Shown here one piece after another: positions 5,147 to 9,326 of a stretch of 64,000 nucleotides of DNA (position 1 is its first letter; each line of letters starts with the position of its first letter). Source of the stretch: Desulfocarbo indianensis (lineage in GTDB: Bacteria > Desulfobacterota > Desulfarculia > Desulfarculales > Desulfarculaceae); the NCBI GenBank assembly GCA_001184205.1, contig LBMP01000004.1, positions 261,755 to 325,754 on the forward strand, written 5' to 3'. Under the pieces are notes generated by a model. It ran no database searches. It was given only the letters and a program-made list of their open reading frames with translations, and was not told where the DNA came from. The position numbers and the translations under genes were made by a program.

Positions 5147-5500
5147 TTAGTGGTGATGGTGATGATGCTCGTGCCCGGCGGAGTGGCCTCCGGCCGCCAC
5201 GTAGCGCGCCTCGCCCGGTCCGGCCGCCGTGGCCTCGTGAACCTCGGCCCCTTTAAGATAGATGGCCTGGCCGGGTTGCAGGGTCAGTTCGCCTTGGGGC
5301 CCGCTGATTTTAATCGCGCCGCTGATGGCCAGGATTATTTCCTCGTGCCCATCGCCGGGTTTCAATATCCTGGGCTCCTCGCCGGGGTTCAGCACGCCGT
5401 AGAGCAAGTAGCAGGCGTGGGTGCCCAAATCCTTCAGCCCCAGCACGGTCTCGCCGCCCTCGCGGGGGGCCCGGCCGGCAACGTCGTAAACCTTTAGCAC
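5147..5500 (-). CDS. cupin-domain protein with C-terminal poly-His tail
   Basis: The 117-residue small beta-barrel protein has cupin motifs around GDGHEEIILAISGAIKI and PGQAIYLKGAEVHEA, consistent with metal-dependent binding of a small ligand. The last ten residues are SAGHEHHHHHH without the first Ser (AGHEHHHHHH), a natural His-rich tail likely to bind Ni, Zn or Fe. The start is GTG, seven bases after GGAGG. It begins 21 bases after the radical SAM gene and precedes the sigma-54 activator by 42 bases, so all are probably one transcript. Whether it serves peptide maturation, metal supply or sensing cannot be decided from sequence. Confidence 0.8.
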   Translation of the reverse strand: MLKVYDVAGRAPREGGETVLGLKDLGTHACYLLYGVLNPGEEPRILKPGDGHEEIILAISGAIKISGPQGELTLQPGQAIYLKGAEVHEATAAGPGEARYVAAGGHSAGHEHHHHHH

Positions 5501-5521
5501 GTTGTGTCCTCCCTGAAAAGA

Positions 5522-6679
5522 CTAAGTGTTTATGCCATGCAGCGCGCACATCACCGGATCGGGCCGGTCCAGGGCCGGAGCCCGGAAGCGGCAGCCGCCG
5601 CCGCAATCCTCGGCCGCCGGGCAGCGGGCGCATTGCGGCACGCTGGCCAGGGCCAGGGGCCGCCGCCGGGACCAGCAGGTCCACAGGCCGTCGGCGGCCA
5701 GGCCCAGGGGGTTGTCGAAATAAAACCCGCACTGGGCCGTTCTGCCGTCCGGGGCCACGGTGCACAGGTGCAGGCCGCAGGCCATGCCCCCGCTGCCGCC
5801 GTGATAGGCCCCGCCAAAGGCGAAACTCATGGCCTGGGCCGCCTCTTGCGGCGTCACGGCCAGATCCGGGCCCTGGACCAGGCGGCCGGCCAGGCAGGGG
5901 GCGTCCACCCCCCATTCCTGGGCGCCCAATTCCCGCACCAAGTCGGCCAGGCCCGCCATCTCGGCCAGGTTGCCGGCGTGGGCCATGGTGGCGATGGACA
6001 GAGCCAAACCCGCCTCCCTGACCCGCCGGGCCGCCGTCACGGCCCGCTCGAAGCTGCCCGGCCCGCGCAGGCTCTCGTGGCCCTGGCGCAGACCGTCCAG
6101 GCTGATCTGCACCTCATGGCAATTAAGCCCGGCCAAGCGCCCGGCGTCAAGCAAAAGCCCGTTGCTGAGCAGCACCTTTCGCACCTTCAGCGCGGCCAGG
6201 GCGGCATTGATCTCCTCCCAGCGGGGATGCATGAGGGGCTCGCCGCCGCTTATCAAAAGACGCAAGCCCCCCATGGCCTCGAACTCGCGGACCAGGGCTG
6301 CGAAATCGGCCGCGGGCAGGTCCACCTGGCGGGCCGGGCCCAGATAGCAGTGGGCGCAGGCCAAATTGCAGCGCCAGGTTACCTGGACCTCCAGGTAGCG
6401 CAGGGAGGGCTTGGGCCCCTGGCACACCGGCAACGGCCGGGGGCGGGGCGCGGGGCTCAGCTCCAAGAGGCCCTCCTCCAGGCAGAACTGGGCGAACTCC
6501 GCCTCCAACTCGGCCTCGGCCAAAGTCAGCCCGCCCCAGCAGCGCCTTAAGCCCGCCAGGGCGTCTTCATTGAGCTCGTAAAGCTCGTCTGCCTTTAGAT
6601 CATAGAGACAGGGCTCCTCCAAAAGGCGCAGGCTCACGTGGTCCGCCAGGCGGACGTACTGGTCTTCGCGTTGGCTCAT
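5522..6679 (-). CDS. radical SAM/SPASM peptide maturase with PqqD-like leader-binding domain
   Basis: The 385-residue protein has three parts. Residues 8-75 resemble a PqqD-type RiPP recognition element (HVSLRLLEEPCLYDLKADEL). Residues 93-290 are the radical SAM core, with CNLACAHC at C104/C108/C111 and ISGGEPL for SAM binding. The C-terminus is a SPASM region with CARCPAAEDCGGGC (C-x2-C-x5-C-x3-C) plus further Cys for auxiliary Fe-S clusters. This architecture installs thioether or C-C links in ribosomal peptides. The start at 6679 was chosen because it overlaps the preceding gene by four bases and begins at the PqqD-like domain. Its likely substrate is the 20-residue peptide encoded at 7081-7143. 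The exact maturase subfamily is not assigned. Confidence 0.88.
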   Translation of the reverse strand: MSQREDQYVRLADHVSLRLLEEPCLYDLKADELYELNEDALAGLRRCWGGLTLAEAELEAEFAQFCLEEGLLELSPAPRPRPLPVCQGPKPSLRYLEVQVTWRCNLACAHCYLGPARQVDLPAADFAALVREFEAMGGLRLLISGGEPLMHPRWEEINAALAALKVRKVLLSNGLLLDAGRLAGLNCHEVQISLDGLRQGHESLRGPGSFERAVTAARRVREAGLALSIATMAHAGNLAEMAGLADLVRELGAQEWGVDAPCLAGRLVQGPDLAVTPQEAAQAMSFAFGGAYHGGSGGMACGLHLCTVAPDGRTAQCGFYFDNPLGLAADGLWTCWSRRRPLALASVPQCARCPAAEDCGGGCRFRAPALDRPDPVMCALHGINT

Positions 6680-7014
6680 GGTTTTTCCGGGGGCTGGTCC
6701 AGGTCCAGGCCCTGGGCCAAGAGGGCGGCCGCCACCCGCAGGCCGCCGCAGGGCTCGCACTCCTGGCGGGGCACGGACGGGTCGCGGAAATCGCAGCCGT
6801 CCACGCGGAAGGCGCATTGGGCGCAAATGGCCAAGAGCGCGGGGTGGTCGGGGGGCTGGCCGTAGAGATGGCCCGCGTGGTCCGGCGGGATATGCTCCGC
6901 GGCCTGGGCCAGGCCGGGCCGGGCCACCAGCCAGTTGAGCCCGCCGCAGCCCTCGGGGTCCGGCTTGTCGGGTTTGTAGTAGCGGCAGAAGCCAGGACAG
7001 ATGATGGCACGCAT
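6676..7014 (-). CDS. small eight-cysteine protein of the peptide-modification locus
   Basis: The 112-residue cytoplasmic protein begins MRAIICPGFCRYYKP. It has eight Cys (6, 10, 23, 64, 67, 74, 86, 89) in the patterns CPGFC, CAQC, DGCDFRDP and CEPCGG, suggesting one or more metal or Fe-S sites. I recognise no family. Its stop overlaps the start of the radical SAM gene by four bases, a translational-coupling arrangement, so it may be a partner, an electron donor or a chaperone for the maturase. An upstream in-frame Met at 7065 would place the N-terminus inside the strong hairpin at 7035-7061, so I prefer 7014, although no strong Shine-Dalgarno is seen there. Confidence 0.75.
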   Translation of the reverse strand: MRAIICPGFCRYYKPDKPDPEGCGGLNWLVARPGLAQAAEHIPPDHAGHLYGQPPDHPALLAICAQCAFRVDGCDFRDPSVPRQECEPCGGLRVAAALLAQGLDLDQPPEKP

Positions 7015-7034
7015 GGGCTTTTTCCCAAATAGGA

Positions 7035-7061
7035 TGGGGGGAGGCCGTGAAGCCTCCCCCC
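7035..7061 (-). terminator. strong hairpin between precursor and maturation genes
   Basis: GGGGGGAGGC (7035-7044) and GCCTCCCCCC (7052-7061) are perfect 10-base arms with a 7-base loop. On the minus strand the hairpin is followed by only a weakly T-rich stretch. It is therefore best seen as a partial terminator or a 3'-end stabiliser that would give more precursor mRNA than enzyme mRNA. Confidence 0.6.
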
Positions 7062-7080
7062 ACACCTCGGCTAGTCTAAG

Positions 7081-7143
7081 CTAGCAGCTGCTCTTGCACT
7101 TGCAGAGCCCGCGCTGGGTGCGCACGATCTTCTTGATCTTCAT
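7081..7143 (-). CDS. 20-residue Cys-rich peptide, putative RiPP precursor
   Basis: The complete translation is MKIKKIVRTQRGLCKCKSSC. It has a basic N-terminal leader-like half and a C-terminal core LCKCKSSC with Cys at 14, 16 and 20. The start ATG at 7143 has an excellent Shine-Dalgarno, AAGGAGG, six bases upstream, and the frame closes with TAG at 7081. It is too short for usual gene calling. Its place directly before an 8-Cys protein and a radical SAM/SPASM enzyme with a PqqD-like domain, together with Ser/Lys/Cys residues suitable for thioether formation, makes it the likely substrate. Expression and modification are inferred. Confidence 0.78.
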   Translation of the reverse strand: MKIKKIVRTQRGLCKCKSSC

Positions 7144-7195
7144 GGCGCAAACCTCCTTGGATTTTGGTCCCTTCATGGGACGTTTATATGGCTTA

Positions 7196-8379: not shown

Positions 8380-8603
8380 GGGGCCGGTCAACGTGGCCGG
8401 TGAATCGCCATTTAAATCACGCGGGTTGCATTTTCCAGAGTTCTTCATTAATCTTGGGCGGGTTATGCCGCCGGCGCCTCTTTTGCCCCTGGCTGGGCGC
8501 GGACGGCGCGCCGGGCTCCAAATATTTTCGAGGCGCGCAGGACCACGCCCCGCCAGCTCCGGCAAGTCATAGTTAATCCAGTCAGTTGCGGAGGTAAGGC
8601 TTC

Positions 8604-9326
8604 ATGGCAAGGAAAGGGTGGAAGGCGGCACTGGCGGTAATGGTTTGTTTGACCTTGATGAGCGGCACGGCTCTGGCCGGGCTGGTGGATGAAGTGGCGG
8701 TGGGCATCCGCTGGAAAAAATTCGAGCTCACCGGCGACAAAGGCTTCACCGGCACCATCACCTCCAATTCAGTGGATGAAAAAACCGAGATTTACCCCAC
8801 CAACCTGAACGCCCTGGTCACCTTTTGCCCTTACGGCGGCCTGGTTTTCGAGTACGACCGCTTCGGCGCGGTGATGGAGCGCGACGGCCGTCTGTTCTGG
8901 GACACCTTCATGCTGGGCGTCAACGTGCGCCATCATTTCAAGGAGTACCGCCTGGCTCCCTACGCCATGGTGGGCGTGACCTGGAGCCGGGTGCGTTTCG
9001 ACGAAAACAACTGGTGGCGCTACGGCTACGGCAGCGTGCAGGAATTCGACGAGTATTCCAAGGGCAGGCCGCCCGAGGACTGGATGACCGCCACCCGGCG
9101 CCTGCGCAACATGCAGCCGGATGATTGCTTTGGCTGGGCTTTCGGTTGCGGCGTGGATGTCTTCCTCACCGAGCACATCGCCCTCAACCTGGACGTCAAA
9201 TGGAACCGGGCCGAGACCGACGTGAACTACCGCACCCGGATCGACGATCACAATGAGATAGACCGCGATTTCACCTACGACCTGAACACGGTCTCCTACG
9301 GGCTGGGTGTGCGCTGGTATTTTTAA
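8604..9326 (+). CDS. outer-membrane beta-barrel protein
   Basis: The 240-residue exported protein has a clear signal peptide (residues 1-25, ending GTALA before GLVDE). The mature part alternates polar and hydrophobic residues in amphipathic strands and ends in YGLGVRWYF, with the terminal Phe typical of BAM substrates. It resembles small 8-10-stranded OmpW/OmpA-barrel-like proteins, but I cannot assign a family. The start is supported by GGAGGTAAG about ten bases upstream. It is followed by a terminator-like hairpin, so it is probably monocistronic. Confidence 0.85.
   Translation: MARKGWKAALAVMVCLTLMSGTALAGLVDEVAVGIRWKKFELTGDKGFTGTITSNSVDEKTEIYPTNLNALVTFCPYGGLVFEYDRFGAVMERDGRLFWDTFMLGVNVRHHFKEYRLAPYAMVGVTWSRVRFDENNWWRYGYGSVQEFDEYSKGRPPEDWMTATRRLRNMQPDDCFGWAFGCGVDVFLTEHIALNLDVKWNRAETDVNYRTRIDDHNEIDRDFTYDLNTVSYGLGVRWYF

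Follow-up and report, generated by a model that had tools for sequence, protein, structure and literature searches.

We show here that a peptide of only 20 residues and a radical SAM/SPASM enzyme (the maturase) co-occur completely within the sample of the phylum that was searched, even where their genes are unlinked, and that the peptide frame is a real protein-coding gene kept under selection beyond chance. The reading that we consider likely is a RiPP-type system of a new family, in which the peptide is the substrate of the enzyme and the product is housekeeping-like; the modification, the substrate relation, the type of bond, the role of a Cys-rich partner protein and the function are inferred.

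The window analysed here is a stretch of 64,000 nucleotides from Desulfocarbo indianensis. Its reading frames confirm four genes at 5147-7143, all on the minus strand, in the order peptide, Cys-rich partner, radical SAM/SPASM enzyme, cupin. In the direction of transcription, the features of the locus are:

7167..7181, minus strand: 5' leader RNA hairpin gtccc[ATGAA]gggac, whose stem covaries among relatives while the A-N-G-A-A loop is kept
7152..7158, minus strand: Shine-Dalgarno AAGGAGG of the peptide gene, read from the sequence, eight bases upstream of the ATG
7081..7143, minus strand: precursor peptide gene, 20 codons, MKIKKIVRTQRGLCKCKSSC, with its ATG at 7143 and its stop ending at 7081
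7036..7061, minus strand: G+C-rich hairpin GGGGGGAGGC...GCCTCCCCCC between the peptide and partner genes, read from the sequence
6676..7014, minus strand: Cys-rich partner (c8), 112 aa, with homologues in a wider family; elsewhere it forms one protein with the maturase
5522..6679, minus strand: radical SAM/SPASM maturase, 385 aa, with an N-terminal RRE-like (PqqD-like) domain, assigned by motifs and predicted structure
5147..5500, minus strand: small cupin, 117 aa, with a GTG start and a His-rich C-terminal tail, a weak cupin match and an accessory gene

The partner and maturase frames share 4 bases (7014-6676 and 6679-5522), and the cupin ends in HEHHHHHH. The initial annotation had described four genes running in one direction with overlaps or short gaps, and a strong Shine-Dalgarno before a 63-base peptide gene; both descriptions held, the strand being left unstated there. 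A scan of genome contigs yielded a single close relative, a Desulfarculus MAG.

The 20-codon frame is present in 17 of the 63 genomes of the same class, and among 49 copies of the peptide the length is exactly 20 codons in every one. M1, I3, K5, C14, K15, C16 and C20 are invariant, S19 is retained in 47 of the 49, and neither Trp nor Tyr occurs in the family. Across the copies, synonymous sites approach saturation (pS 0.75), whereas the overall pN is 0.27, with values of 0.15 for codons 13-20 and 0.55 for codons 9-12; selection therefore acts on the protein. Within Desulfarculaceae the dN/dS of the peptide is 0.14, and third codon positions vary freely even at invariant residues. In distant families, the same 20-codon gene was recovered beside homologues of the partner without the use of any peptide profile. 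We infer from sequence alone that the peptide is composed of a recognition segment (residues 1-8), a spacer (9-12) and a core (13-20). Being so short, such a precursor may be missed by routine gene callers. Variations in copy were also seen: locus L042 carries tandem peptide genes (8575-8634 and 8760-8819, minus strand), each with its own hairpin and one of them reading CKCHSSC in place of CKCKSSC, and genome G364, which already has two full copies, contains a third, partial peptide-like frame (G364:C205:27790-27843; profile positions 3-20, E 0.003).

A profile search found the maturase in 38 of 395 sampled genomes of the phylum (E 3.7e-97 or better), with no further matches in these genomes down to a cut-off of 1e-60. 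The peptide profile, searched separately, gave a full-length match in all 38 maturase genomes (E no worse than 7.3e-6), whereas the 357 genomes without the maturase had none; one of these (G167) showed a weak partial match. Some of the tested genomes had been used to build the two profiles, and the pairing figure describes a sample of 395 genomes from one phylum, with no other phyla included; it is not a blind test. A collection of plasmids contained no maturase at E <= 1e-30. Linkage of the two genes is variable: the peptide gene lies 3' of the enzyme gene in family f13 and some others, is not beside it in G269, G350 and G069, and is present in more than one copy in each of G045, G311 and G364.

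The initial annotation had inferred that the enzyme acts on the peptide as its substrate, and had held that this would be refuted by homologous maturases in genomes lacking a similar peptide upstream, or by conservation of the DNA without conservation of the frame. Neither was found. When the neighbourhoods of homologues were checked, the same 20-codon frame was present, beside the maturase or apart from it, in all 38 maturase genomes, though not always upstream, and the second expectation was reversed, the protein frame being kept and the DNA not. Thus, the inference is supported by complete co-occurrence, while the modification itself, that is, a mass loss or bonds, has not been shown.

The same data bear on whether the short frame could be an attenuator leader, with Cys codons that sense cysteine or stalled ribosomes. 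Its length, its Cys codons and the hairpins on either side, one of which is terminator-like, would fit such a leader. However, a leader must lie upstream, and the peptide gene is found before, after or far from the enzyme gene: it is 3' of the enzyme in f13 and elsewhere in the genome in G269, G350 and G069. Moreover, some genomes have two copies, and the non-Cys residues M1, I3, K5 and K15 are as invariant as the cysteines. We therefore rejected this candidate, which is all but excluded.

The hairpin 3' of the peptide gene is the one that is terminator-like in relatives, where a run of T comes after it. The other, a short hairpin with the A-N-G-A-A loop, precedes 31 of the 49 peptide genes. 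Two-sided changes occur in all five of its pairs, and compensatory cells number 27 compared to 8.1 in shuffles. Outside Desulfarculaceae, rows were picked because they have the hairpin, so that the percentage paired is overstated, but within Desulfarculaceae the hairpin is present in 17 of 17 copies with no selection of rows. Most peptide genes of family f13 have, in its place, a hairpin with an ANGAA loop 10-16 bases past the stop codon. Rfam gave only chance-level matches on the locus and does not contain this hairpin. A role in regulation or in RNA stability is possible, and is no more than a guess.

The maturase has the features of a peptide-modifying radical SAM enzyme. Its AdoMet motif is C104-x3-C108-x2-C111 (CxxxCxxC), and its SPASM cysteines are C301, C317, C350-x2-C353-x5-C359-x3-C363 and C378; both sets of columns are invariant among homologues. 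The AF2 model has high confidence (pLDDT 92.2), and its best fold match is SkfB (Z 27.7, rmsd 3.8, 316 residues, enzyme residues 13-365), with SuiB at Z about 26 over enzyme residues 8-383. Both matches take in the N-terminal domain, whereas the next ones, anSME and CteB, cover the remainder of the enzyme. The RRE (PqqD-like) domain is thus predicted on structure alone, as the alignments to SkfB and SuiB begin at residue 8-13, and a Pfam sequence search finds no PqqD domain. In Pfam, NCBIfam and PHROGs, the maturase gives only generic radical SAM matches, and no listed named NCBIfam family comes near its cut-off.

Given such an enzyme, it may be asked whether the peptide could instead be a small metal-binding peptide that stays unmodified, with the enzyme acting on another substrate under the same control. 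A CxCxxxC arrangement could bind a metal or a cluster, and the partner is Cys-rich and the cupin has a His-rich tail. In contrast, the peptide is completely paired with one maturase even when unlinked, and the maturase folds like enzymes that modify peptides and carry a leader-binding domain, so that we regard this explanation as very unlikely.

For the partner, seven of its eight cysteines are invariant across 35 homologues of the wider family, C86 being the one that varies. In about ten genomes it forms the N-terminal part of a single 506-572-aa protein with the maturase, and because of these fusions it is likely best described as a part of the maturase. A three-Cys frame of 53-60 aa, homologous to the first half of the partner (hhalign probability 94%, E 8.6e-8), precedes and overlaps the maturase gene in family f13 and in a single genome of f27. 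The partner model has a pLDDT of 88 and finds no match in the PDB by sequence or by fold, which does not in itself prove a new fold; Pfam, NCBIfam and PHROGs have nothing for either the partner or the peptide. A role in binding Fe-S or zinc is conceivable, being inferred from the cysteines only. A few genomes have c8-like proteins with no maturase or peptide nearby (L101, L105, L112, L120 and L121; CAEHCR[FLY][FY]KPW...), which may form a related family that has a different partner.

Two details of these proteins had been named in the initial annotation. The PqqD-like domain held by predicted structure and not by Pfam. The eight-Cys partner held at this locus, but only seven of the cysteines are invariant in the wider family, and the fusions make it better seen as part of the maturase than as a separate partner.

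The cupin is an optional accessory: 45 loci were examined, and 27 of them have it, with its His-rich tail, next to the maturase, contig ends truncating some of the others; Pfam, NCBIfam and PHROGs give it only a weak match. One genus has a BtuF-CbiZ fusion, BtuF and BtuCD-like genes with a cobalamin riboswitch directly upstream of the peptide operon and in the same direction (L043 1078-1257, plus strand; L036 1189-1373, plus strand, with the genes downstream), and a DUF192 gene between peptide and partner. A link to cobalamin uptake was set aside, as the arrangement is not a general one. In family f13, a protein of about 300 aa with a weak ATP-grasp match is encoded after the peptide gene or the maturase gene (L149 4397-5305, minus strand, and six more f13 genomes); it may be an additional tailoring enzyme. 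By eye, rubrerythrin, desulfoferrodoxin-like, rubredoxin-like and thiol-peroxidase-like genes were seen near a few loci (L100 upstream of 3386, L186, L187); rubrerythrin, superoxide-reductase-like and NADH-oxidase-like neighbours, also noted on visual inspection, are no more than suggestive.

The neighbourhoods of the peptide and maturase genes contain no conserved exporter, protease or immunity gene. Given this, and since the core hardly varies across the phylum, the product most likely serves a constant physiological function, redox or metal-binding, rather than that of an antibiotic; this is inferred, and no function was found. A sactibiotic-like antimicrobial would be in keeping with a radical SAM enzyme accompanied by a short Cys-containing precursor. 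However, antibiotic cores diversify, whereas this one does not, and the lack of a conserved immunity or export gene also speaks against it, making an antimicrobial very unlikely. It should be noted that the RiPP reading has its own difficulties, since no modification has been observed and no conserved protease or exporter explains the fate of residues 1-12.

Under the RiPP reading, residues 1-8 of the peptide (MKIxK[IV]x[KR]) would serve as a built-in recognition strand bound by the N-terminal RRE of the enzyme, residues 9-12 would be a spacer, and residues 13-20 (L-C-K-C-x-x-S-C) would be the modified core. A 5'-deoxyadenosyl radical generated at the first cluster would take a hydrogen from the core, and the auxiliary clusters would accept an electron while a Cys sulfur, or another group, forms the bond. 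The partner would probably bind a metal or an Fe-S cluster and help to supply electrons or to handle the substrate. The enzyme would most likely form cysteine thioether crosslinks in the core; the three invariant cysteines do no more than make such bonds possible, as the type of bond cannot be read from sequence.

The main alternative as to chemistry is a bond that does not involve sulfur, such as a carbon-carbon or other crosslink via Lys15, leaving the three cysteines free for a metal or cluster. This remains possible. Lys15 is invariant in all 49 copies together with its flanking cysteines, and SuiB, an enzyme that makes a Lys-Trp bond, is among the closest folds. On the other hand, SkfB and CteB, which are likewise among the closest folds, form thioethers (PMC8326336), and Trp and Tyr, to which Lys is usually joined in such crosslinks, are absent from the family.

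Returning to the preferred RiPP system with a housekeeping-like product, molecules that derive from peptides and have a conserved core, PQQ among them, tend to serve as cofactors and not as weapons, and the near-constant CKCxxSC core and complete association with the maturase in the phylum sample point to a cofactor-type role in anaerobic bacteria. A bolder reading is that the product is an undescribed redox-active or metal-binding peptide-derived cofactor of the anaerobic lineages of the phylum, made from the 20-residue precursor by a two-component maturase, with its expression linked to a dedicated hairpin with the ANGAA loop; here the balance tips slightly against it. The system is small (one peptide and one or two proteins), enough so for reconstitution in a laboratory E. 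coli strain. It further includes a Cys-rich maturase subunit for which no fold match is known, and an RNA element without a known binder.

Compared with known systems, sactipeptides and ranthipeptides (SkfB, CteB/SCIFF, freyrasin) share with the present family a SPASM enzyme with an N-terminal RRE and a Cys-bearing precursor in the locus, and SkfB is the best fold match of the maturase. Unlike in those systems, the core here is nearly constant and there is an extra Cys-rich partner, sometimes fused, and the bond has not been shown. SCIFF, with about 45 residues and 6 Cys, differs from the precursor here, with 20 residues and 3 Cys in 49 of 49 copies, and its criterion is not met; nevertheless, our housekeeping argument parallels the one made for SCIFF, which is conserved over a whole bacterial class and was argued not to be antimicrobial (PMC8326336). 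PQQ and mycofactocin resemble the present system in their short conserved precursors, PqqD-type recognition, SPASM enzymes and cofactor-precursor-like conservation, but the core here has no Glu/Tyr or Val-Tyr, and the maturase scores only 61.5 bits on TIGR02109 (PqqE; cut-off 381.35) and 63.2 bits on TIGR03962 (mycofactocin; cut-off 265). The streptide-type enzyme SuiB matches the fold over almost the whole enzyme, but a Lys-Trp bond is impossible here because Trp is absent from every peptide copy. GeoRSP (TIGR04303) likewise involves a radical SAM/SPASM enzyme of related bacteria, and the maturase reaches 74.1 bits against a cut-off of 400. The identities of SCIFF (by Cys count and length) and of PQQ, mycofactocin and GeoRSP (by NCBIfam scores) were thus rejected, which supports the claim of the initial annotation that no known RiPP class fits. 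The open-licence literature that was searched holds no paper on GLCKC with radical SAM and no description of the peptide or maturase family; a 2014 survey of RiPPs in anaerobes reported other loci, Deba_2490 of Desulfarculus baarsii and Desac_0107 of Desulfobacca acetoxidans (PMC4289311). Of the defining features of the radical SAM/SPASM kind, those that can be read from sequence and structure are present, namely a precursor linked to the enzyme, the CxxxCxxC motif with SPASM cysteines and, by structure only, an RRE. Thus, the system likely belongs to the general radical SAM RiPP kind, whose testable features it meets, as a previously undescribed family.
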